Source of the DNA: Mycobacterium sp.
GTDB taxonomy: Bacteria > Actinomycetota > Actinomycetes > Mycobacteriales > Mycobacteriaceae
DNA length: 64,000 bases
Reading direction: 5' to 3'
NCBI GenBank assembly: GCA_003987775.1
Contig: RXJD01000002.1
Location: 186,001-250,000 of the forward strand
Shown in pieces: positions 9,578 to 59,190 of the stretch; position 1 is the first letter of the stretch, and every line of letters starts with the position of its first letter. The notes under the pieces are model-generated. The model saw nothing but the letters and a program-made list of their open reading frames with translations, ran no database searches and was not told where the DNA came from. The position numbers were made by a program, and so were the translations under genes.

Positions 9578-10524
9578 GCGACGATCTGATGGAAGTGAGC
9601 GGTCCTCCGAAGAACCTGGTGACCGGGGTGATCAAGGCGGTCCGCCCCCGGCAGTGGGTGAAGAACGTGCTGGTCCTGGCCGCGCCGTTGGCCGCGGCCG
9701 GCAGTGGCGACCACACCCGCCCGCGCGATGCCGCCGGCCACGTCGTGCCGTACGACTGGGGCGCCATGGGCGTCAAGGTCGCGATCGCGTTCGTGGTGTT
9801 CAGCCTGGCGGCCTCGGCCATCTACCTGATCAACGACGTGCGCGACGTCGAAGCCGACCGGGAGCACCCCACCAAGCGGTTCCGGCCGATCGCCGCCGGC
9901 GTGGTGCCCCCGTGGCTGGCCTACACGCTGGCCGTGGTGCTGGGTGCCGCGTCGCTCGGGCTGTCCTGGTGGCTGACGCCCAACCTGGCGGTGGTCATGG
10001 CGGTCTACCTGGTGATGCAGCTGGGGTACTGCTACGGGCTCAAACACCAAGCCGTGATCGACATCTGCATCGTGTCCTCGGCGTACCTGATCCGTGCCAT
10101 CGCCGGCGGCGCGGCCACCGGCATCCCGTTGTCCCAGTGGTTCCTGTTGACCGCGGCGTTCGGGTCGCTGTTCATGGTGGCCGGCAAGCGGTACGCCGAG
10201 CTACAACTGTCCGAACGCACCGGCGCCCAGATCCGCAAGTCGCTGGAGAGCTACACCAGCACGTATCTGCGGTTCGTCTGGACGCTGTCAGCGACGGCGG
10301 TGGTGATGTCCTACGGCTTGTGGGCATTCGAGCGTGACCGCTATTCGGGTTCCTGGTTCGCGGTGTCGATGATTCCGTTCACCATCGCGATCCTGCGCTA
10401 CGCGGTGGACGTCGACGGCGGGCTGGCCGGGGAACCCGAGGACATCGCGCTGCGCGACCGCGTGCTGCAGCTGTTGGCCCTGGCGTGGATCGCAACAGTT
10501 GGTGCTGCTGTTGCTTTCGGCTAG
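9574..10524 (+). CDS. ubiA: Decaprenyl-phosphate phosphoribosyltransferase (UbiA family)
   Basis: Transfers 5-phosphoribose from PRPP to decaprenyl phosphate, the first committed step to decaprenyl-phospho-arabinose. It is a polytopic membrane protein of 316 residues. The first aspartate-rich motif is NDVRDVEADREHPTKRFRP and the second lies in DVDGGLAGEPEDIALRDR. The ATG at 9574 overlaps the previous stop and has AAAGG upstream; an in-frame GTG nine bases earlier is less likely. Compared with the roughly 302-residue H37Rv protein it has a longer polar loop (around GSGDHTRPRDAAGH) after the first membrane segment. The following aftB frame overlaps its end. Confidence 0.96.
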   Translation: MSDDLMEVSGPPKNLVTGVIKAVRPRQWVKNVLVLAAPLAAAGSGDHTRPRDAAGHVVPYDWGAMGVKVAIAFVVFSLAASAIYLINDVRDVEADREHPTKRFRPIAAGVVPPWLAYTLAVVLGAASLGLSWWLTPNLAVVMAVYLVMQLGYCYGLKHQAVIDICIVSSAYLIRAIAGGAATGIPLSQWFLLTAAFGSLFMVAGKRYAELQLSERTGAQIRKSLESYTSTYLRFVWTLSATAVVMSYGLWAFERDRYSGSWFAVSMIPFTIAILRYAVDVDGGLAGEPEDIALRDRVLQLLALAWIATVGAAVAFG

Positions 10525-12490
10525 CGAAAGATTCAAGGCCCTCCAGGCGGCCGCCCTGGCGCGGCGTCCCGCCGTCCGGCGGGTCAAGTGGCCGGTCTTC
10601 CCGTACACCACCACGGTGCGGGTCAGTCTGTGGGTGAGCGTGGCGCTGGTTGCCGTGCTGTTCGGCTGGGGTGCCTGGCAACGCCGCTGGATCGCCGACG
10701 ACGGGCTGATCGTGCTGCGCACGGTGCGAAACCTGTTGGCCGGCAACGGGCCGGTGTTCAACGCGGGCGAGCGGGTGGAGGCCAACACCTCCACCGTCTG
10801 GACCTACCTGCTGTACGTCTGCAGCTGGGTGGGCGGGCCGGTGCGGCTCGAGTACGTGGCGCTGGCCGTGGCCCTGACGCTGTCGGTGCTGGGCGTGGTG
10901 TTGTTGATGCTGGGGACGGGCCGGTTGTACGCGCCCAGCCTGCGCTCCCGCCGGGCGATCATGCTGCCGGCCGGTGCACTCGTCTACATCGCGGTACCCC
11001 CGGCGCGCGACTTCGCGACGTCAGGCCTGGAGAGCGGCCTGGTGATGGCCTATGTCGGCCTGCTGTGGTGGATGATGGTTTGCTGGGCGCAGCCGTTGCG
11101 GGTGCGCCCGGAAAGTTCGTGGTTTATCGGTGTGCTCGCCTTCGTCGCGGGTTGCAGCGTGCTGGTGCGCCCCGAACTGGCGCTGATCGGCGGCGCTGCG
11201 CTGATCATGATGATGATCGCCGCCCGCAGCTGGGGACGCCGGGGACTGATCGTGCTGTGCGGCGGATTGCTTCCGGTGGGGTATCAGATCTTCCGGATGG
11301 GCTACTACGGTCTGCTGGTCCCCGGTACCGCGCTGGCCAAGGATGCGGCCGGAGACAAGTGGTCACAGGGTTTGACCTATCTCGCGAACTTCAACGCGCC
11401 GTACTCCCTCTGGGTGCCGGTCGTGCTGCTGGTGCCGCTGGGGGTCGTGTTGATGCTGGCCCGGCGCCGGCCTTCGTTCATGCGCCCGACGCTGGCGCCC
11501 GGCTACGGGCGGGTGGCCCGCGCGGTCCAGAGTCCCACCGCCGTGGTGACGTGGATGGTGGTCAGCGGCCTGCTGCAGGCCCTGTACTGGATCCGGCAGG
11601 GCGGTGACTTCATGCACGGACGGGTGCTGCTGACTCCGCTGTTCTGTTTGCTGGCGCCAGTGGCCGTCATTCCGGTGGTGATTCCGGACGGGAAAGACTT
11701 CTCCAAGGGAGCCGGCTACTGGCTGGCCGGGGGGGTGAGCGCGCTCTGGCTGGCGGTGGCCGGGTGGTCGCTGTGGGCGGCGAATTCGCCCGGAATGGGC
11801 GACGACGCCACCCACGTCAGTTACTCCGGCATCGTCGACGAGCGCCGGTTCTACGCCCAGGCCACCGGCCGCGCGCATCCGCTCACCGCCGCGGACTACC
11901 TCGACTACCCGCGGATGGCGGCCGTGCTGGTGGCGCTCGACAACACTCCCAATGGCGCGCTGCTGCTGCCGTCGGGCAACTACACGCAGTGGGACTTGGT
12001 GCCGATGATCCCGCCCGGCAGCGCCCCGGGCATCCCTGCCGACCAGAAGCCGCAGCACACGGTGTTCTTCACCAACCTGGGCATGGTGGGCATGAACGTC
12101 GGGCTCGACGTCCGCGTGATCGACCAGATCGGGCTGGCGAACCCGCTGGCCGCCCACACCGAGCGGCTCAAGCACGGCCGTATCGGTCATGACAAGAACC
12201 TGTTCCCGGACTGGGTGGTGGCGGACGGGCCGTGGGTGAAGTGGCCGCCGGGCATCCCCGGCTACCTCGATCAGCAGTGGGTCGCCGAGGCCGAGGCGGC
12301 GCTGAAGTGCCCTGCGACCCAGGCGGTCCTCAACTCGGTGCGCGCCCCGATGACCCTGCGCCGGTTCTTCTCCAATGTGCTGCACGCCTATGAATTCACG
12401 CAGTACCGCATCGACCGGGTACCGCTGTATGAACTGGTCAAGTGTGGCCTCGAGGTGCCGAAGGTGCCACCCACACCACCGCGTGAGTGA
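10499..12490 (+). CDS. aftB: Arabinofuranosyltransferase AftB
   Basis: Adds the terminal beta-1,2-linked arabinose residues of arabinogalactan and lipoarabinomannan, using decaprenyl-phospho-arabinose at the outer membrane face. It is a GT-C protein: the first membrane helix is followed by RRWIADDGLIVLRTVRNLLA with the catalytic-type aspartate pair, then about nine further helices and a soluble C-terminal domain (about 440-663). The start is uncertain. From TTG 10499 it is 663 residues and overlaps ubiA by 26 bases; from GTG 10616 it would be 624, close to the H37Rv annotation (627). Codon bias (very high GC at third positions) extends upstream of 10616, favouring the longer form, but no start has a good ribosome site. 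Confidence 0.92.
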   Translation: MVLLLLSASERFKALQAAALARRPAVRRVKWPVFPYTTTVRVSLWVSVALVAVLFGWGAWQRRWIADDGLIVLRTVRNLLAGNGPVFNAGERVEANTSTVWTYLLYVCSWVGGPVRLEYVALAVALTLSVLGVVLLMLGTGRLYAPSLRSRRAIMLPAGALVYIAVPPARDFATSGLESGLVMAYVGLLWWMMVCWAQPLRVRPESSWFIGVLAFVAGCSVLVRPELALIGGAALIMMMIAARSWGRRGLIVLCGGLLPVGYQIFRMGYYGLLVPGTALAKDAAGDKWSQGLTYLANFNAPYSLWVPVVLLVPLGVVLMLARRRPSFMRPTLAPGYGRVARAVQSPTAVVTWMVVSGLLQALYWIRQGGDFMHGRVLLTPLFCLLAPVAVIPVVIPDGKDFSKGAGYWLAGGVSALWLAVAGWSLWAANSPGMGDDATHVSYSGIVDERRFYAQATGRAHPLTAADYLDYPRMAAVLVALDNTPNGALLLPSGNYTQWDLVPMIPPGSAPGIPADQKPQHTVFFTNLGMVGMNVGLDVRVIDQIGLANPLAAHTERLKHGRIGHDKNLFPDWVVADGPWVKWPPGIPGYLDQQWVAEAEAALKCPATQAVLNSVRAPMTLRRFFSNVLHAYEFTQYRIDRVPLYELVKCGLEVPKVPPTPPRE

Positions 12491-42509: not shown

Positions 42510-42755
42510 GGCGACGCGACTGAGTGGTCTTCGGATGCGGGGCCGGGGTTCAGCCTCCGGAGTTGCCTTTCGGGGCTGGGGCGCCGGCCGGTCCGTCGAT
42601 TCGCAGGCGACGCTGCCGAAGCCGCGGATTCCGCGCATTTGCCGCCGCCGCCACACCGAAATGGTGGGGCTTTGCCAAACGGGACGCCCGCAGAGGTCAC
42701 AATATTGCCGGAGAACTAGCCAGGACTCTTGATCTCCCGGAAGGCTGGCAGCGCG

Positions 42756-43880
42756 ATGACGAACTCCGGTCTCGGGTTTGGTGTGCTCGGGCCGCTGCAA
42801 CTGTCGGTGGACGGCGTACCGGTATCGGTCGGCCCCGCCAAGCAGCGGGCGGTGCTCGCGATGCTGTTGATCAATCGCAACCGGCCGGTGTCGGTCGATT
42901 CGCTGATCGACGCGGTGTGGGACGGATCCCCGGTGCCGGCGGCCCGGACCAGCATCCAATCCCACATCTCCAACCTGCGGCGGCTGTTGCGTGACGGGGG
43001 CGTTGACCCGGTCCGCGTACTGGCGAGCGCCCCGCCGGGCTACCAGTTGAATGTGACGGACTCCGATTACGACCTGGGCCGGTTCGCCGCCGCCAAGGCC
43101 GCTGGAGTCGAGGCCGCGGCCGCCGGCCGGTTCGAGGAGGCGAGCAGTCACCTGTCCGCGGCGCTGGCCGAATGGCGCGGCCCGGTCCTCGATGACCTGC
43201 GTGACTTCGACTTCGTGGCTCCCTTCGCCACCAAATGCCTCGAAGACAAGGTCGCCGCGCACAGTGCTCGCGCCGAGGCCGAGATCGCTTGCGGGCGTGC
43301 CGATGCCGTGATCGGTGAGCTGGAGGCGCTGGCTGCCGAACATCCCTACCGCGAGCCGCTGTGGGCGCAGCTCATCACGGCCTACTACGTCACCGAGCGC
43401 CAGTCCGATGCCCTCGGCGCCTATCGGCAGTTGAAGACGGCGCTGGCCGAGGGGCTGGGTATCGATCCCGGGCCGACGGTCAGCGACCTGCACGAACGGA
43501 TCCTGCGCCAGGAGCCCATCGTCACCAAGCAGGCGGTCAAGAGCACCCGCAAGCGCAGCCGGATCGACACCAGGACCACGCTGTCGACGTCAGTGGCCGC
43601 GGGGTTGCGGGACCGCTTCGGACGCACCTACCAGCTCAAGGGCGCGACCACCCGTATCGGGCGGTTGAACGACAACGACATCGTGCTCGACGACAACGAC
43701 GTCAGCCGCCACCACGCCGTCATCGCGGACACCGGATCAGGCTTCGTGATCACCGACCTGCGCTCGACCAACGGTGTCGAGGTACGGGGTGAACTGATCC
43801 GGGGGAGCACCACGCTGTCCCACGGCGACAGCGTCTGCATCGGCGGATGCGAGTTCGTCTTCGAGATCCGGCCTGTCTGA
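42756..43880 (+). CDS. embR: EmbR-type transcriptional regulator
   Basis: 374-residue regulator with three domains: OmpR-type winged helix (about 1-95, FGVLGPLQLSVDGVPVSVGP, KQRAVLAMLLINRNRPVSVD), bacterial transcriptional activation domain (about 100-260) and FHA domain (about 285-365). FHA phosphopeptide residues are present: TRIGRLNDNDIVLD, DVSRHHAVI and LRSTNGVEV. In M. tuberculosis EmbR is phosphorylated by PknH and activates embCAB, but lies elsewhere; in M. avium embR is next to embAB, as here. ATG 42756 (GGAAGG eleven bases upstream) is chosen over TTG 42729. It is divergent from embA and followed after 21 bases by the diguanylate cyclase gene. Confidence 0.93.
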   Translation: MTNSGLGFGVLGPLQLSVDGVPVSVGPAKQRAVLAMLLINRNRPVSVDSLIDAVWDGSPVPAARTSIQSHISNLRRLLRDGGVDPVRVLASAPPGYQLNVTDSDYDLGRFAAAKAAGVEAAAAGRFEEASSHLSAALAEWRGPVLDDLRDFDFVAPFATKCLEDKVAAHSARAEAEIACGRADAVIGELEALAAEHPYREPLWAQLITAYYVTERQSDALGAYRQLKTALAEGLGIDPGPTVSDLHERILRQEPIVTKQAVKSTRKRSRIDTRTTLSTSVAAGLRDRFGRTYQLKGATTRIGRLNDNDIVLDDNDVSRHHAVIADTGSGFVITDLRSTNGVEVRGELIRGSTTLSHGDSVCIGGCEFVFEIRPV

Positions 43881-43901
43881 GATCACGGGAAGGTCCGGGG
43901 C

Positions 43902-44969
43902 GTGGGCAGGCGGGAATATCGTTTTGCGACGGAGGCGCTGCGCGAGGGTCGGATGACGCGGGCGTTCACCACGGTGGTCGCCGGGGCCTGCTTCGTCGCG
44001 GCCGGTCTGCTGGTGGCCGTCCAGTTTCATCCGGCCCGTCCCGTGGGCGTGGTCGCCAAGTCGGTGCACATCGTCGCGATGGTTACCGCCGTGGGTTACG
44101 GGATGCGCTGGCTGTTCGGCCGGTTCCCCGGTTACCGGCAAGCCGTGGTGTTCGTCGTGTGGGCGGACTGCGCGGCCGCGTTCGGCGCGGCGGCTCTGTC
44201 CGAAACCGGCGCGCGGCTCTGCGCGACGTTGTATCTGGGCATCGTCGGCATCTTCGCCGCTTTCCTGCTGGGGGCACGAATCCTCTACGCGCACTGTGTC
44301 TTCGGTGCCCTGGTGATCGGTTCCATCACGGCCTGGGCGGTGGCCGAGCAGCATGCGGGGTTGTTCGACCTGTTCGTCTTCTACATGCCCGCCCTGGCCT
44401 GGGTGGTGGCGGTGCCGCTGGGAGGTCTGGCGCTCATCGAAGGCGGGCGGCGCGCGATCGGGAGAACCGCGCGCTCGGCGCGGTACGACCCGCTGACCGG
44501 ACTGCGCAACCGGCGCGGGCTGTACGCCGCGATCGAAGTCGCCGTGCGGCGGCTCGCCCCGTCGGCGATGGTGGTCGTGGCGGTATGCGACATCGACCGC
44601 TTCAAGGCTCTCAACGATGCGCACGGCCACGTGGTCGGTGACACCGCCCTGATCGAGATGGCGAAGGAACTGCGGGCCCTGGCGCGACCGGACGAGATCA
44701 CCGCCCGGATCGGGGGCGACGAACTGGTGCTCGTGGTGTTCGGCAGCGGGGGCGATGTGTCAGAAGTCGTCGACCGCCTGATGCCGTTGGCCCGGGTGGA
44801 GATCGGCGCGCTGGCGCTCACCGCGAGCATCGGGGTCGCAACGCAGGTCGCCGGTGATCGCTATTTCTCGATCGACGACGTGCTGCGGCATGCCGACGCT
44901 GCGATGTACGAGGCCAAACGGTCCGGCGGCGCGACGTGTGTCATCCACCAGCCGATGGACCGGATTTAG
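43902..44969 (+). CDS. Membrane GGDEF protein, probable diguanylate cyclase
   Basis: 355 residues. An N-terminal half with about six membrane helices (residues 20-185) is followed by a GGDEF domain (about 195-350): RYDPLTGLRNRRGLYAAIE, VCDIDRFKALNDAHGHVVGD with the metal aspartate, ARIGGDELVLVV and DVLRHADAAMYEAKRSG. The active-site loop is GGDEL (271-275), so the last position is Leu rather than Phe; the GGDE core is intact and activity is plausible. No RxxD inhibitory site was seen just before the loop. Such enzymes make cyclic di-GMP. The GTG has GGAAGG upstream, 21 bases after embR, so the two form one operon. Its stop overlaps that of the convergent embC. Confidence 0.9.
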   Translation: MGRREYRFATEALREGRMTRAFTTVVAGACFVAAGLLVAVQFHPARPVGVVAKSVHIVAMVTAVGYGMRWLFGRFPGYRQAVVFVVWADCAAAFGAAALSETGARLCATLYLGIVGIFAAFLLGARILYAHCVFGALVIGSITAWAVAEQHAGLFDLFVFYMPALAWVVAVPLGGLALIEGGRRAIGRTARSARYDPLTGLRNRRGLYAAIEVAVRRLAPSAMVVVAVCDIDRFKALNDAHGHVVGDTALIEMAKELRALARPDEITARIGGDELVLVVFGSGGDVSEVVDRLMPLARVEIGALALTASIGVATQVAGDRYFSIDDVLRHADAAMYEAKRSGGATCVIHQPMDRI

Positions 44970-52826: not shown

Positions 52827-52832
52827 AGTTTA
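52827..52832 (-). promoter_or_regulatory. -10 hexamer TAAACT of a probable leaderless promoter
   Basis: On the minus strand TAAACT spans the end of the upstream Gre-like gene (its stop TAA is part of the hexamer) and is followed by eight bases and the ATG of the GtrA-like gene. Confidence 0.45.
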
Positions 52833-53315
52833 GGTGGGCAGCTTCACCGAGAGCAGCTCGACCTGGCTGGGGCCCTGCGGCGTGGAGTATGTCACCGTGT
52901 CACCCGCCTGATGACCGGCCAGCGCCTGCGCCAGCGGGCTGCGTGCGGTGAGCGTCTCTCCTTCGTGGCCGACCGGGGTTTCCTCCACGATCGAGATCAC
53001 GTACATGGTGACCACCTCACCGTCGGCGAAGCGCAGGGTGACCTCGGTGCCGCCGGGCAGCGTGTCAGAGGCTTCCGAGCTGGACGGTCCGGACTTCAGC
53101 CGCCGGTCCAGCTCGTTGATCCGTTCGGCCAGCACCGCCAGCTCGTCGGCGCGCTGGATGGCCTCCGCGGCGTCGCCGTGGTCACCGACCATGCCGCGGT
53201 CGTTCTTTACCTCGATCTCCAGGCGGTCGTGCCGCTGCTTGAGCCGGGCCAGTTCGGCGGCGAGGTTCTCGCGCAATGCTGCCGCCGCATCCCTTGACTG
53301 GGCTTCCTCGCTCAC
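52830..53315 (-). CDS. GreA/GreB-family transcription factor paralogue (Rv3788 type)
   Basis: 161 residues from GTG 53315 (AAAGG upstream), the same length as H37Rv Rv3788. An N-terminal coiled coil (about 8-75, [40 protein letters not shown]) and a C-terminal FKBP-like domain ([40 protein letters not shown]) are the Gre layout. The coiled-coil tip [14 protein letters not shown] retains acidic residues. Rv3788 binds the RNA polymerase secondary channel and has been described as an inhibitor rather than a cleavage factor. A longer frame to 53339 exists but the conserved start VSEE fits the shorter form. Confidence 0.92.
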
Positions 53316-53410
53316 GTCCGCCGACCTTTCACCGAACACCAGGGCGTTTCAGTGTTACACCACAACAGGCCGGCCGTCACTCTTATCTCTCACGCGTTTA
53401 CCGGCGTGTA

Positions 53411-54514
53411 TCACGCCGGGCCGGCCTCCTCGTCGTCGTATTGCGACAACCCGTTTCGCACGGCGTCGAAAATAGCCAGACCCTGCGACACCAGCCCACT
53501 GGTCACCTGGCTGATTCCTTCGGCGCCGTTGAGCACGGTCAGATTCGATCCGGCCAGCCCGCGCGCCGCCTTGTCCACGATCTCGGGGAGTTGATCGATG
53601 ATCATCCGGTCCAAGGCCACCCGGTTGTGCGATGCGGCAGCCTCGGCCTGAATCTTCATCTTCTCGGCGTCGGCCACGGCGAGAATCCGGACCCGTTCGG
53701 CTTCCGCCTCGGCGGGCTTGACCACCTCGGCGACCAGTTCCTGCTGGCGCAGTTCCGCCGCCCGCTGGGCCAGTTCGGTGCGCATGGCCAGCACCTCACG
53801 CTGGGCCTCCGCTTCGGCCAGCGGCCCCGCCTGTGCCGCTTCGGCCTGCGCCTTGTCCACCTCGGCCTTGTACTGGGCCTTCACGATGGCGGTCTCCCGG
53901 GCGAATTCGGCCTGCTTGCGCTGGGACTCCTGTTCGGCCTCGGCGGCCTTCTGGTTGGCCTGAGCCTGGGCGATCTGGGCCTGCTGCTGCACGGCGGCGT
54001 TGTGCGGGGCCGACATCGCCTTGATGTAGCCCAGCCCGTCGTCGTCGATGGACTGGATCTGCAGCGCGTCGACGTTCAGGCCGATGCGGGCCATCTCCTC
54101 CTTAGAGCCGTCGAGCACCTCGGTGGCCAGCTTCTGGCGTTCCCGGATGATCTGCTCGACGGTCATCGAGCCGATGATCGAGCGCAGGTGCCCGGCGAAG
54201 ATTCGCCCCGTCAGAACCGACATCTGGTCCTGTTCGGACAGGAATCGTTGCGCGGCGGCGATGATGCTCTCCGTGTCGTTGCCCACCTTGAACGCGATGA
54301 CGGCCCGGACGTTGAGGGTGATGCCCTGCTGCGTGACGCACTTCTCGGCGACCTCCGCCTCGCACATCGCCAGGGTCAGGAAGGCAGCCTTGCGAAAGAA
54401 CGGGATGACGAAGGCGCCGTGCCCGGTCACTACGCGAAATGGTGCATTGCCTTTGGCTTTACCGCCCGAAATCAGCATCGCCTCATCAGGCGCGGGCACC
54501 CGGTATCCGAGCAT
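53411..54514 (-). CDS. Flotillin-like SPFH protein
   Basis: 367 residues. An SPFH domain (about 5-165: VPAPDEAMLISGGKAKGNAP, VTQQGITLNVRAVIAFKVGN, QIIRERQKLATEVLDGSKEE) is followed by a long Ala/Glu/Gln-rich coiled coil (about 170-300, many KAEAEQE-type heptads) and a C-terminal region LTVLNGAEGIS. Flotillins scaffold membrane microdomains. No obvious N-terminal membrane hairpin is present, so attachment may depend on a partner. AAGGAG is seven bases before the ATG. The NfeD-like gene lies 26 bases upstream; flotillin-NfeD pairing is common in bacteria. It is the last gene of the pterin-type operon. Confidence 0.9.
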   Translation of the reverse strand: MLGYRVPAPDEAMLISGGKAKGNAPFRVVTGHGAFVIPFFRKAAFLTLAMCEAEVAEKCVTQQGITLNVRAVIAFKVGNDTESIIAAAQRFLSEQDQMSVLTGRIFAGHLRSIIGSMTVEQIIRERQKLATEVLDGSKEEMARIGLNVDALQIQSIDDDGLGYIKAMSAPHNAAVQQQAQIAQAQANQKAAEAEQESQRKQAEFARETAIVKAQYKAEVDKAQAEAAQAGPLAEAEAQREVLAMRTELAQRAAELRQQELVAEVVKPAEAEAERVRILAVADAEKMKIQAEAAASHNRVALDRMIIDQLPEIVDKAARGLAGSNLTVLNGAEGISQVTSGLVSQGLAIFDAVRNGLSQYDDEEAGPA

Positions 54515-54540
54515 CGTTGTACTCCTTGTGTTTTCGATCT

Positions 54541-54786
54541 TCAGGTGAAAGTGGGGTCGTGCCAGGGCTCGACGACGACGGTTCGTGGCCCGTGCACCTG
54601 TACGACAAGCACCTGGGTGCCCTTGGGTAGAGGTTCGTCGGAGCGGGCCAAAAACGTCTCCTTGGAGCCGCGCACCGTCAGCAGCACCTCACCGGCGCCC
54701 TCGGCGCCACGCGTCGGCACGATCAGGGTTCCGACGCAGCCGACCACAGAGGCGCTCACGGTCGCATTCTCCACCCCGGGCTGCAT
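54541..54786 (-). CDS. Small NfeD-like OB-fold protein
   Basis: 81 residues from ATG 54786; a GTG four codons further in is an alternative. VGCVGTLIVPTRGAEGAGEV, then LLTVRGSKETFLARSDEPLP and VLVVQVHGPRTVVVEPW give the five-strand OB pattern of the NfeD C-terminal domain (GxxGxa....GxV...G....A.s...i..G..V.V). It has no membrane helices or protease part, so it is the minimal soluble form that accompanies flotillins. It starts four bases after the stop of the secreted-protein gene and is followed by the flotillin gene. Confidence 0.75.
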   Translation of the reverse strand: MQPGVENATVSASVVGCVGTLIVPTRGAEGAGEVLLTVRGSKETFLARSDEPLPKGTQVLVVQVHGPRTVVVEPWHDPTFT

Positions 54787-54790
54787 GCGA

Positions 54791-55291
54791 TTACATGTCG
54801 AGGTCGATACCGACGACCTGCGCGGCATACGTGGCGACGTCGTAGGCCGGAGACGCCCCGGCGACCACGTTCGGCAGCGGGCCGTCCGGGCGCCCGGCGA
54901 GCTGCGGGCGGACGGTCCAGGAGCCGAACGTGATCGGGACGACCGCGATGCGGGTGCCGTTCTGGTCGGGCACATCCTGCCCGTACCGCATCAACTGCCA
55001 GCTCTGCTGATGCGGATCGGAGGCAACCACATAGACGCGATCGAGGTGCCAGGCCGCGATCAACCAGTGCGCGTCCCGCGCGGGAAAGTGCAAGGTGTCA
55101 CCGGGTCCCCGCGACACCTCGGGCGGGGCGGAATCGAGCGCGGCGCGCAGTTGCTCCGCCGAACCGGCCGCCGTCAGGGTCGACGGCAGGTTGGTCAGGA
55201 ACGAATCGAGATCGGGTGCGGCATAGGCCGTTCCGTGGCCGGCGCAAACCAGTCCGGTTCCGACGATGAGCAGGGCGGCAATCGCCCTCAC
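54791..55291 (-). CDS. Secreted hypothetical protein of the pterin-type operon
   Basis: 166 residues from GTG 55291, which has AAAGGA six bases upstream and overlaps the QueD-like stop by four bases (GTGA). The signal peptide VRAIAALLIVGTGLVCAGHG ends AYA before APDLDSFLTNLPS. The mature part (HFPARDAHWLIAAWHLDRVY, SWQLMRYGQDVPDQNG, VAGASPAYDVATYAAQVVGI) has no family I recognise and no cysteine pair. Its fixed place between cytosolic pterin-type enzymes and the NfeD/flotillin pair suggests a shared envelope-linked task. Function unknown. Confidence 0.78.
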   Translation of the reverse strand: MRAIAALLIVGTGLVCAGHGTAYAAPDLDSFLTNLPSTLTAAGSAEQLRAALDSAPPEVSRGPGDTLHFPARDAHWLIAAWHLDRVYVVASDPHQQSWQLMRYGQDVPDQNGTRIAVVPITFGSWTVRPQLAGRPDGPLPNVVAGASPAYDVATYAAQVVGIDLDM

Positions 55292-55818
55292 GCCCAGTCC
55301 TTTACCGGCAACGCGGTCAGCGTGAGCACCCGGCTGCCGCTCTCCTGGGCGTCGATCCGCGACACCCATACCCGGCCCTCGGTCGCCCGCGCGACGATCT
55401 TCTCGACGGTCTCGAACACCCAGGCGGCGGAGGCTTCCAGGCCGGCGCTGTCCACGATCCGCATGTCCACCAGGTCGCGTTCGGCCAGCAGCTCGAACAG
55501 GTCGCGCTGTGGGTCGTTGGCGGTGATCAAGGTGGTGTGTGCGTACTGGGCCTGCAGGGCGGCACGAATGTCCTCCAAGGATTCGGCACCGAGCACCTGA
55601 TCGCCGGATTCGGTTTCGGCGCAGGCGAACTCGATCTCGAAACTGAGTGCGTAGCCGTGCAGGAAAAGGCGCTTGCCGTTGTCGGACCAGGATCGGCGGC
55701 AGCAGTTCAGCCCGCCGAACCGCTTGCGCAGGTGGAACTGAGCCGTACGTCCCACGGGCGCGTCGTCACGGTGCATGGTCGCGGTCTGGGCGGGGCCGGC
55801 GAAGGCGATCTCAGGCAT
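55288..55818 (-). CDS. Divergent QueD/6-pyruvoyl-tetrahydropterin synthase-like protein
   Basis: 176 residues of the T-fold PTPS/QueD family: AQFHLRKRF, then KRLFLHGYALSFEIEF, YAHTTLITANDPQRDLFELL and a C-terminal SGSRVLTLTAL strand. In QueD two zinc histidines form HGH and a catalytic cysteine lies four residues before it; here the motif is HGY (54-56) and the cysteine position is Arg50, with a CC pair further up (39-40). H94 of the catalytic LDH-type pair remains, while the glutamate that binds the pterin in PTSE appears to be Ala. It may bind a pterin without the classical reaction. It overlaps the FolE-like gene by eight bases and the secreted-protein gene by four. Confidence 0.8.
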   Translation of the reverse strand: MPEIAFAGPAQTATMHRDDAPVGRTAQFHLRKRFGGLNCCRRSWSDNGKRLFLHGYALSFEIEFACAETESGDQVLGAESLEDIRAALQAQYAHTTLITANDPQRDLFELLAERDLVDMRIVDSAGLEASAAWVFETVEKIVARATEGRVWVSRIDAQESGSRVLTLTALPVKDWA

Positions 55819-56257
55819 GGTTACTGATCTTCTTTCTTGTTGCGAGAGTGATGAATTCGCGCTGTTGGTTGGCGTTGTCGCGCATCGTTCCGTAGAAGGC
55901 CATGGTGGTGGTGGGCCCGGCCAGGGCGGCGCCCTCGCGGACCGGGGTGCAGGCGTAACCGCCTTCCACCAGCACGCCCAACCCGCGCGGGGCGAGCTGG
56001 TGGTGCAGCCAGAGGCCGATCCGGGTCGTCATCTTGTCCTGCACCTGGACGCCGATCGCGCACGCCTCGACGACGCGGGTGAGTTCAGCCTGGCTCAGTC
56101 GCTGGTCGCCGCGCAGGTAGCCGATGTGCACGACGCCGTAGAACGGCAGCAGGTGCTGTTCGCAGATCGCGTGGAACGGGATCGGACGCAGCAGTACGGG
56201 CCGGTCGAGCCGCAGCTGCAGGATCCCGCTGTCGGGGCGGACGAGTGTGTGAGGCAC
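55811..56257 (-). CDS. Short GTP cyclohydrolase I-like (FolE-like) protein with altered active site
   Basis: 148 residues, lacking the N-terminal helical part of FolE (usual length 180-220). The T-fold core aligns well: FHAICEQHLLPFYGVVHIGY, LSQAELTRVVEACA, VQVQDKMTTRIG, GVLVEGGYACTPVREGA, TTTMAFYGTMRDNANQQREF. The zinc ligands known in E. coli FolE (C110, H113, C181) match C32, H35 and C103. The catalytic histidines H112 and H179 are replaced by Gln34 and Tyr101. Ring opening of GTP as in FolE is therefore doubtful; another purine or pterin reaction or a binding role is possible. GTG start with GGAAG nine bases upstream. First gene of a five-gene run ending in flotillin. Confidence 0.82.
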   Translation of the reverse strand: MPHTLVRPDSGILQLRLDRPVLLRPIPFHAICEQHLLPFYGVVHIGYLRGDQRLSQAELTRVVEACAIGVQVQDKMTTRIGLWLHHQLAPRGLGVLVEGGYACTPVREGAALAGPTTTMAFYGTMRDNANQQREFITLATRKKISNHA

Positions 56258-56341
56258 CGCGATAGCTTCCGGGCGGGGCCTTGGAGGATTCTAAAAGGAT
56301 TCTTGTGGGGTTCTTGCGGCAGGAATCGCTGCCGGCTTCCG

Positions 56342-58270
56342 TTACCCGTTACCGCCCGGTGTGCCGGATCCGCCCTGGGATCCGGTGCCGCCGACGGCGC
56401 CGCCCGCACCCGCAACGCTCAGAAACACGCCGCCGGTACCCCCGCCACCACCGCTACCGGCCGTGCCGCCGGCCCCGCCGGTGCCCGCGACGCCACCGTC
56501 ACCCCGGGAACCGGCAAGACCGCCGGTGCCGCCGGACGAGCCGGCATGGCCGCCGGTGCCGCCTGTCCCACCAGAACCCCCGGTCCCGCCGGCCCCGCCC
56601 GCGCCCCCGGTGCCGCCGTTGCCCGCCAGGAGACCACCCGCGGCGCCCTGGCCGCCCGTGCCGCCCGCTCCACCGGTGCCGCCGGTTCCGCCGGCCCCTC
56701 CGTCGCCCCCGTCACCCCCGTCGCCGGCGTTCTGCGTGTTGCTGGTGCCCCCGACGCCGCCGTTGCCCCCCGTGCCGCCGTGGGCGCCGGTACCGCCGGC
56801 GCCACCCATCCCGCCCGCACCGCCGGCGCCGCCGTCGCCGATGAGCAGGCCGCCTCGACCACCGTTGCCTCCGGCGGCTCCACTCCCGCCGGCCCCGCCG
56901 GTGGCCCCGGCGGCTCCCGTGCCGCCATCGCCCCCGTTGCCGCCGTTGGCCTGGTTGAAGTCGAAGGACCGGGTGGTTGTCACCGCGTTGCCGCCGGCTC
57001 CGCCGGCGCCGCCTGCCCCGCCAGGGGCACCGCCCGCGGCGCCACGGCCACCGTTGCCTCCGTCCGCGGTGACGCTGGTGGGCAACGTGCTGGTGTTGCT
57101 GCTGGTCGCCGACGCATTCCCCCCGGCGCCGCCGGCCCCGCCCGCGCCGCCGGACCCGGCTGTTCCGCCGGCACCACCCTGACCGCCCGTGGCGGTGATG
57201 GAGTTCTGTCCCATCGGGTCGGTGCTGACGGCCGTTGCGTTGCCACCCAGACCGCCGGTGCCGCCGGCCCACCCCGCGCCGCCTGTCCCGCCGGTGTCAC
57301 CCGCGGTGCCCGTGGCGTGTGCATCGTTGTTGGTTGTCACGCTGCTGGCTGCGCCCGGCGTTCCGTTCGGCGCCGTGGCTCCCGTGGTGGCGGGATTGGC
57401 TCCGGTCGCACCGGCCGTACCGGCGCCGCCGGGTCCGCCGTTGCCACCGTCGCCCCACAACCCGGCGCAACCGCCGTCTCCACCTCGCCCGGCAATGCCG
57501 CCATTGATGCCGGCTGCGGCGTTACCGCCTGCCCCACCGTCGCCGCCGCTACCGAACAACAGGGCATTTCCGCCGGCACCGCCGGCAGCACCGAGTCCGC
57601 CCGCACCGCCGGTTCCGCCGTTGCCGATCAGGGGGGCGATGCCGCCGACGCCTCCGCCGCCACCCGTTCCGCCTACCCCACCCGCGCCGCCGCCGCCGTA
57701 CAGCAGACCGCCGTTTCCGCCGTTGCCGCCGACCGCCCCTGCGCCGCCCGCGCCGCCGGCCCCGCCCTGGCCCCACAAGCCTGCCGAGCCGCCGGTCCCG
57801 CCGGGTTGACCAGCGGCCCCCCCGGCACCGGCACCGCCGTTGCCGTACAGCAGCCCGCCTGCGCCGCCGGCCTGGCCAGGTGCGGTGCCGTCGGCGCCGT
57901 TGCCGATCAGCGGGCGTCCCAAGAGGGCTTGGGTGGGGGCATTCATCACGCTGAACGCCGCCTGCGCGGCAGGTTGCAGGGGCGAGGCATTTGCGGCCTC
58001 CGCGCTGGTGTACGAAACCCCACCCCCGGCCAAGGCCTCGACGAAGTGGCGGTGGAAGCGTGAGACCTGTTCGCTGAGCGCCTGATACGCCTGGCCGTGA
58101 CCGCTGAAGATCGCGGCGATGTGCTGCGAGACCTCATCGGAGGCGGCCGCCAGCACCGCCGTAGTCGGCGCCGCCGCCGCTGCGCTCGCCGAATCGACCG
58201 ACGCACCGACGCCTGCCACGTCCGCTGCTGCGGTCGCGAGTGCTTCCGGGCCAACCAACATGAACGACAT
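56342..58270 (-). CDS. PE_PGRS family protein
   Basis: 642 residues from ATG 58270 (GAGGGGA eight bases upstream). PE domain (about 1-95: [40 protein letters not shown]) and the [14 protein letters not shown] linker precede a glycine-rich PGRS region. The PGRS part is less uniform than in the other copy: several segments are rich in Thr, Asn and Ser ([40 protein letters not shown]) between GGAGG blocks. It ends without an extra domain. Probably ESX-5 exported. Divergent from the secreted peptidase gene, and 84 bases upstream of the FolE-like gene on the same strand. Confidence 0.94.
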
Positions 58271-58488
58271 GGCGTGGTTCCCCTCGACGTGAGTGTGGTG
58301 AGCCGAGCCGATTGCTCCGGCTCCCACCATCGGTCACTGGGCACCGCAAGTTCTTCGGCCAGTAGGCCGGTTCGGGGGATGAAATTCCGTCCACCAATTG
58401 GAGGAGACCCGCCGCCGGTAGTGCCGGGTGGAGCGAGCCCCAAGAATCTGCAGAGCTTCCCGAGAGAACGACAACCGAGCCTTCTCCC
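58271..58488. promoter_or_regulatory. Divergent promoter region of PE_PGRS and secreted peptidase genes
   Basis: 218 bases between two divergent starts. It must hold both promoters; the PE_PGRS ribosome site GAGGGGA is at its left edge. No convincing -10 hexamer or operator was identified by eye. Confidence 0.4.
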
Positions 58489-59190
58489 ATGCGCTCTATC
58501 GAGAATGCCCGTAGTTCCGTCGTCAAGGTGACGCTGGCCATCGCCGCCGTCGCGGTCACGCTGGGCCTGGCGACCGGCCTGGCCCACGCCGCTTCCTCGA
58601 CGCCGCACACCGAGTCGCCCCGCATGTACGGCAACCCGGCCGCGGCCGCTCAGTACTGGCGCAAACAATCCGTCGACGACTGCGCCCTGATGGCCGCGGC
58701 CGACGTGATCGGGGAGTTGACTGGGCGTCAGCCGTCTGAAAGCGAGATCCTCGCGGTGGCACAGCAGATGCGCAGTCGCGTCCACCCCGGACCGATGTAC
58801 CGCGCGGGGTACGGCACCGACCCCGGCGACATTCCCTCCTTGTTGGGGCAGTACGGCATCTACGGCGTGGCCACCAGCCTGGACGAGGCCGCCGCCACCG
58901 GGCTGGACTCCGGACTGGAAGCACTGGAGCGCTACCTGGCCGACGGCCACAAGGTGATCGCCGGGGTGAACGCCGAGATGATCTGGGGCCTGCCGGTTCA
59001 GACCAGGGACGGCCGCGGCAACCCGATGAGCGACCACGCCGTCGTCGTCACCGGCGTCGACCTGGTCAACGGCACCGTGCACCTCAACGACAGCGGAACC
59101 CGCGCCGACGAGGTCGTGCCACTTGACGTCTTCCAGCGCGCCTGGGCCACCGGCGGCGACGAGCTGGTGGAGACCCGCGAAACCCGCTGA
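58489..59190 (+). CDS. Secreted papain-fold (peptidase C39-like) protein
   Basis: 233 residues. Signal peptide (residues about 11-34, VKVTLAIAAVAVTLGLATGL ending AHA). The mature domain matches the peptidase_C39_2 pattern: C65 in SVDDCALMAAADV, YGTDPGDIPSLLGQYGI, HKVIAGVNAEMIW, H183 in MSDHAVVVTGVDL and LNDSG with an Asp/Asn position. These can form a Cys-His-Asp triad. In other bacteria this fold cleaves leader or wall peptides; here no bacteriocin or transporter is nearby, so a wall or host target is a guess. It is divergent from PE_PGRS and convergent with the methyltransferase gene (3 bases between stops). Confidence 0.8.
   Translation: MRSIENARSSVVKVTLAIAAVAVTLGLATGLAHAASSTPHTESPRMYGNPAAAAQYWRKQSVDDCALMAAADVIGELTGRQPSESEILAVAQQMRSRVHPGPMYRAGYGTDPGDIPSLLGQYGIYGVATSLDEAAATGLDSGLEALERYLADGHKVIAGVNAEMIWGLPVQTRDGRGNPMSDHAVVVTGVDLVNGTVHLNDSGTRADEVVPLDVFQRAWATGGDELVETRETR

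Follow-up and report, generated by a model that had tools for sequence, protein, structure and literature searches.

The 64,000 nt stretch of Mycobacterium sp. contig RXJD01000002.1 analyzed here (positions 186,001 to 250,000 of the forward strand, hereafter the window) contains a compact operon encoding relatives of FolE and QueD, a small secreted protein, an NfeD-like protein and a member of the SPFH/flotillin family. The host is a Mycobacterium near M. gordonae, and the closest named locus is that of M. gordonae, whose FolE-like protein is 91% identical. All five open reading frames lie on the minus strand, have one terminal stop codon each and are joined by junctions of -8, -4, +4 and +26 bases; the coordinates, overlaps and gaps in the first-pass annotation of this DNA were exact. 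The genes are, in order of transcription:

56257-55811, minus strand: FolE-like protein, GTG start, 148 aa; Pfam GTP_cyclohydroI 1e-25
55818-55288, minus strand: QueD/PTPS-like protein, ATG start, 176 aa; Pfam PTPS 1e-8
55291-54791, minus strand: secreted small protein, GTG start, 166 aa; N-terminal hydrophobic segment
54786-54541, minus strand: NfeD-like protein, ATG start, 81 aa; NfeD domain 1e-4 (below cut-off)
54514-53411, minus strand: SPFH/flotillin-family protein, ATG start, 367 aa; Pfam Band_7 1e-18

The junctions hold with GTG at 55291 as the start of the secreted protein gene and ATG at 54786 as that of the NfeD-like gene. Longer mechanical reading frames also exist for both genes. 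For the NfeD-like gene the shorter start is favoured, because most homologs align only from about residue 62–74 of the long frame onward. The median pairwise Nei-Gojobori ratios of nonsynonymous to synonymous substitution (dN/dS) among six genomes of the M. gordonae group were 0.12 for the FolE-like gene, 0.14 for the QueD-like gene, 0.25 for the secreted protein gene, 0.11 for NfeD and 0.02 for flotillin. With values of 0.02–0.25 all five therefore behave as genuine coding genes, and purifying selection acts on each of them.

The first product shares its fold family with GTP cyclohydrolase I (FolE), scoring 90.5 bits against a Pfam cut-off of 27. Unlike that enzyme it lacks the N-terminal helical domain; the profile match begins at position 57 of 179, and the open frame is just 159 aa long. 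We aligned 16 of 19 copies (omitting those of loci L034, L045 and L051) with E. coli FolE, in which, counting Met1, we take C111, H114 and C182 to be the zinc ligands and H113 and H180 to be catalytic. All three zinc ligands are kept in 16/16 proteins, whereas H113 is kept in three, H180 in one and both in none, so that each copy has lost at least one catalytic histidine. The window protein reads CEQH and GGYAC where CEHH and xxHxC are expected, which places Q and Y at the catalytic positions, and the omitted copies of L034 and L045 carry Q or D, and Y, at these sites. As two full-length FolE genes are present elsewhere in the genome, folate synthesis need not rely on the operon. A plasmid search, made with this one of the five proteins to look for a plasmid or mobile-element origin, gave 182 records, each below 60% identity.

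The second product scores 35.4 bits against Pfam PTPS (cut-off 22.4). Its membership in the QueD family (COG0720) rests on this match, because alignment of the family with E. coli QueD by hhalign gave a probability of 3%; a PDB profile search with the family returned no believable match, and the predicted structure, with a mean predicted local distance difference test score (pLDDT) of 50, was not used as evidence. LHG, H94 and E159, which we assume to match residues of QueD, are conserved in 27/27 aligned proteins and H29 in 26, while D93 is kept in 21 and lost in the M. gordonae group. The HGH signature is replaced in all 27, by HGY in 23 (among them the window protein) and by HGC in four. 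None of the proteins thus has a motif of PTPS subfamilies I–III, which all include HGH according to the part of PMC5041015 that was available. In samples of the order (249 genomes, 68 genera) and of the phylum (198 genomes, 147 genera) the profile matched only Mycobacterium, and no other PTPS-family protein was found in the host genome.

These residues bear on the idea, raised in the first-pass annotation, that the operon encodes a membrane-associated pterin or modified-purine pathway. In such a pathway the FolE-like protein would make dihydroneopterin triphosphate (or a formylamino intermediate), the QueD-like protein would convert it, and the secreted protein and the flotillin would organize the process at the membrane. 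The invariant zinc ligands, the purifying selection and the presence of a QueD-like gene in 14 of 17 FolE-bearing genomes would all fit this, but they are set against the loss of signature active-site residues and of a whole domain, the occurrence of the QueD-like gene without the FolE-like one in 20 genomes, and a genome that already has full-length FolE genes and no second PTPS. We find a working pathway of this kind improbable. A pterin, queuosine or deazapurine pathway was rejected as first choice on the active-site loss together with the lack of another PTPS in the genome. The textbook FolE and QueD reactions are unlikely in this operon, while the residue patterns would still allow ligand binding or an altered reaction.

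The third product begins with a hydrophobic segment resembling a signal peptide and is putatively secreted; its only Pfam match was below cut-off and meaningless. The full-length gene is confined to the M. gordonae group among the loci fetched, with partial matches in two other genomes. The fourth product appears to consist of an NfeD-like C-terminal domain alone (22.8 bits, below the cut-off of 29.1). The fifth scores 68 bits against SPFH/Band_7 (cut-off 23.6) and falls below the cut-offs of the Flot C-terminal domain (20.7 against 27) and of the FloT equivalog (143.5 against 700). Its match to FloT starts at residue 4 and model position 21, and it lacks the N-terminal membrane hairpin (peak 19-residue Kyte-Doolittle mean 1.47). 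An NfeD-type gene immediately followed by one of the SPFH/flotillin family is a known arrangement, as in the yuaF-floT (yuaG) pair of Bacillus subtilis. In contrast to that pair, the NfeD here is an 81 aa domain, the flotillin is hairpin-less, and the two genes follow FolE and QueD relatives beside dprE1. A Kyte-Doolittle scan found no transmembrane segment in the NfeD-like protein or the flotillin; with the NfeD domain alone and a flotillin without its hairpin, a membrane-microdomain role is not established here.

To the downstream side the operon adjoins, in order, a GreA-domain protein, GtrA and proteins that we take to be DprE1 and DprE2, followed by arabinosyltransferase (emb) genes, presumably embA and embC. 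The first of these neighbours, which we take to correspond to Rv3788, marks the locus:

52830..53339, minus strand: GreA/GreB C-terminal domain protein (Rv3788-like)

All 18 FolE-bearing loci adjoin gtrA/dprE1/dprE2, as do 33 of 40 further loci with a QueD-like or flotillin gene, two of which lie about 6 kb from Rv3788. The remaining seven comprise five distant copies elsewhere and two loci without such a neighbour before the contig end (4.9 and 1.5 kb past flotillin). A scan of genome contigs confirmed two loci, both in Mycobacterium. In locus L037, about 2 kb of additional DNA (10308 to 12381) lies within or just ahead of the dprE1 match.

Among 297 Mycobacterium genomes, the FolE-like gene was found in 17 (one split), the QueD-like gene in 34 and full-length flotillin in 46. 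Before exclusion there were 35 genomes with QueD-like matches (one distant, two split or partial) and 57 with flotillin matches. We excluded G002 from the QueD-like count (35% identity, partial) and eleven genomes from the flotillin count as fragments, split or distant (G029, G031, G050, G073, G075, G090, G116, G144, G190, G216 and G256); a split FolE-like gene (G045), a split QueD-like gene (G061) and a partial QueD-like gene (G036) were retained. FolE-like and QueD-like genes co-occur in 14 genomes, FolE-like and flotillin in 14, QueD-like and flotillin in 22, and all three in 12, whereas the FolE-like gene occurs alone in one, the QueD-like gene in ten and flotillin in 22. The first-pass annotation's joint task for all five genes is not supported in its strict form, as the set is a mosaic, complete for FolE-like, QueD-like and full-length flotillin in only 12/297 genomes, and among the loci fetched the full-length secreted gene is limited to one group.

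Wherever genes of the cluster coexist their order is identical. Independent scattering had been named as the pattern that would speak against an operon, and the genomes show it by halves: the contents vary, while the place hardly does. We read this as one ancestral place whose contents change. The same data could indicate an insertion hot spot at the Rv3788 junction, where accidental accretion put the genes at one site and under one promoter without giving them a common task. Mosaic contents, a secreted gene seen in one group only, flotillin fragments in several genomes, solitary QueD-like genes and a variable spacing to the divergent C39 neighbour (see below) are what such a hot spot would leave behind, but it accounts less well for overlapping starts and stops, constant gene order, a retained upstream repeat array (see below), the FolE-QueD association and a flotillin constrained to a dN/dS of 0.02; we regard it as unlikely. 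Flotillin is present only as fragments or split pieces in G029, G031, G073, G075, G090, G144 and G216, a pattern that hints at repeated decay, although assembly breaks may account for some of these cases. The FolE-like gene of L051 (7087-7456) and the QueD-like gene of L145 (8269-8786) are split between frames and are probably pseudogenes.

Upstream of the FolE-like gene we detected a row of direct repeats followed by a -10-like element:

56273..56316, minus strand: 11-bp-period direct repeats of the CAAGAATCCNN type, putative EmbR/SARP operator
56264..56269, minus strand: putative -10 element GAAGCT, at -12 to -7 from the GTG, with A at -11 and T at -7

The array consists of two to four 11 bp units with the consensus CAAGAATCCNN and stands ahead of the first gene, be it FolE-like or QueD-like. 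A matrix scan found it in all loci that have the FolE- or QueD-like gene intact (36/36, counting that of the window). The matrix was trained on 30 arrays and 29 of the 36 loci were in the training set; the seven untrained loci, which are relatives of trained ones, all match. The reversed sequence of the 57 scanned loci (944 kb) gave no match at the same threshold, and the reversed window gave one of 12.2 bits, under the 15-bit threshold used elsewhere. Within the window, the two-unit pattern (at most one mismatch) occurs only upstream of FolE. Of the loci with a damaged gene, L051 and L148 retain a match. Among the loci scanned, the array tracks the FolE/QueD part of the cluster and not the flotillin. 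The co-regulation proposed in the first-pass annotation is supported by the tight packing, the single conserved array ahead of the first gene and the conserved synteny.

When 25 loci were aligned on their start codons, the array ended about 7 bp before a -10-like GACGCT or GAAGCT at -12 to -7, with A at -11 in 20 and T at -7 in 19 of them; the assignment as a -10 element is ours. In this genome the message is probably leaderless, starting at the FolE-like GTG, which fits with the lack of an evident ribosome-binding site ahead of that codon. As a weak check on position, array places precede start codons in 25/31 cases, compared with 301/620 random positions.

The two-unit pattern occurs at five places in this genome and its reverse at none. 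The other four precede a desaturase gene with a gene behind it that we take to encode a type III polyketide synthase (PKS), a small presumably condensation-like gene (no Pfam match), a cysteine-dioxygenase/methyltransferase fusion and a thioesterase. Repeat places elsewhere in the genome are C5:94589, C54:126952, C70:81071, C99:43291 and, only with one mismatch, C92:69836 (L168-L171 and L225); they lie mostly upstream of lipid or secondary-metabolism-like genes.

A candidate for the protein binding the array is encoded in the same window:

42729..43880, plus strand: EmbR-type regulator (Trans_reg_C + BTAD + FHA), between embA and embC, candidate activator

EmbR belongs to the SARP regulators and carries an FHA domain (PMC9239209, PMC10936776; here and below, cited from the parts available), and SARPs bind direct repeats with a spacing of 11 or 22 bp, the last of which lies 8 bp from the -10 element (PMC10936776). 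The array thus resembles SARP operators such as those of AfsR, with a gap here of about 7 bp. The window regulator has the same three domains as EmbR of the M. tuberculosis EmbR-PknH system, whereas its predicted targets are this operon and other loci. Together with a GGDEF diguanylate-cyclase gene it occupies 42729-44969 (plus strand), divergent between embC and embA, and many relatives have a close EmbR homolog on the contig that carries the flotillin/QueD cluster, some 10–15 kb away from it.

The repeat is tied to EmbR across the genus. We scored a genome as EmbR-positive at a match of E 1e-60 or better and counted matches of the repeat pattern per strand, so that some repeat places count on both strands. 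The 156 EmbR-positive genomes gave 313 strand matches against 70 for the reversed control, and the 141 EmbR-negative genomes gave 36 against 38. After removal of the 59 cluster genomes, the figures were 117 against 43 and 36 against 37. All 37 genomes with a FolE- or QueD-like gene have EmbR, compared with 156/297 overall, and so do 19 of the 22 flotillin-only genomes. In two relatives (L213 and L214) the array flanks an EmbR-type gene, a kinase and C39-like proteins, the domains having been checked for L213.

Taken together, these observations lead us to favour, at slightly better than even odds (about 0.52), an EmbR-activated envelope operon in which pseudo-enzymes of the tunnelling fold stand alongside an NfeD-flotillin pair. 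It would be an accessory envelope operon that some members of Mycobacterium carry next to dprE1/dprE2, the genes for arabinan precursors. A kinase signal would lead to phosphorylation of EmbR, whose FHA domain ties it to Ser/Thr kinases. The EmbR-type SARP would bind the row of 11 bp direct repeats just upstream of the putative -10 element, and binding would give rise to one operon message, leaderless in this genome. The FolE-like and QueD-like proteins, which derive from GTP cyclohydrolase I and PTPS/QueD and have lost canonical catalytic residues, would bind a ligand (a pterin or purine nucleotide) or else a partner protein, without performing the textbook reactions. The stand-alone NfeD domain and the hairpin-less flotillin may form a conserved scaffold part, and the products may serve the envelope near arabinan synthesis.

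Several points weigh against this interpretation. A matrix scan found no array at embA or at embR in the window. This agrees with the unchanged embCAB expression upon deletion of EmbR in M. tuberculosis (PMC9239209), and fits less well with the in vitro binding of EmbR to emb promoters cited in the same paper. EmbR binding and EmbR-dependent expression are themselves predictions from sequence. The genome carries two EmbR-type genes, the second on contig C99, and either could be the one that acts. Common ancestry may underlie both the presence of EmbR and the number of motifs; the counts are taken over genomes irrespective of kinship, with the reversed pattern as sole control. OmpR/PhoB-type regulators also use direct repeats of about 11 bp, and the array may belong to such a regulator whose occurrence simply coincides with that of EmbR in these clades. 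The lack of an array at the window's own embR would fit this; arrays beside EmbR-type genes at two loci and a motif excess confined to EmbR-positive genomes speak against it, and we hold it to be unlikely.

Further reservations concern the operon itself. The array is missing from 9 of 14 flotillin-only loci, so flotillin does not need this operator; the other five match the matrix, among them L143, where the match is weak and not upstream, and L230, outside that set, also has the pattern. L145 and L155, with a split or remnant QueD-like gene, lack the array as well. A start codon close behind the array is seen in only some of the loci: nine of 32 array loci were left out of the -10 line-up, their first start being elsewhere or unclear. 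Finally, loss of the H112/H179-type histidines leaves room for a new reaction, since the zinc ligands are still in place, as are several of the conserved PTPS-like residues. Because EmbR has been reported to bind emb promoters in vitro, and because some loci have a start codon that is not beside the array, we hold the EmbR-activated envelope operon, and the broader proposal that follows, with slightly less confidence.

More tentatively, CAAGAATCCNN may be the operator of the EmbR family across Mycobacterium, governing a regulon separate from embCAB that would include this operon and the thioesterase, type III PKS/desaturase, kinase and secreted C39/DUF732 loci; the FolE and QueD relatives, as pseudo-enzymes that bind ligands, would then join an NfeD-flotillin scaffold close to arabinan synthesis in a new kind of complex. 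We rate this broader proposal as somewhat less likely than not.

On its upstream side the operon has a divergent neighbour:

58489..59190, plus strand: C39-peptidase-like secreted protein, with relatives at array-bearing loci that have kinase and EmbR-type genes

C39-like secreted proteins recur near the array and kinases in L213, L214 and L215, variously with EmbR-type regulators or DUF732 proteins. In the window, a gene that we take to be PE_PGRS-like (56342-58330, minus strand) separates the C39 gene from the operon; it may be an insertion, as only about 150–230 bases lie between the C39 gene and FolE in L034 and L037.

A literature search combining GTP cyclohydrolase, flotillin and Mycobacterium found no paper. 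Searches on flotillin, NfeD and mycobacteria and on M. gordonae and flotillin, which covered titles and the beginnings of abstracts, did not return this gene set, though an earlier description is possible; in the available part of PMC10547480 flotillin and NfeD are named only in the reference list. The listings, titles and passages of the EmbR literature that were covered contain no statement of this repeat, and the words motif, consensus and repeat do not occur in the available part of PMC9239209.

Flotillin-type scaffolding, degenerate pterin-enzyme folds and the arabinan locus come together in this operon, and the titles and abstract beginnings searched describe no such combination. Which genes EmbR, a well-known regulator of mycobacteria, controls directly is in dispute, since reported binding to emb promoters in vitro stands against unchanged embCAB expression upon its deletion in M. 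tuberculosis (PMC9239209). A candidate operator whose enrichment is confined to genomes with EmbR would offer a simple test of which targets EmbR has.

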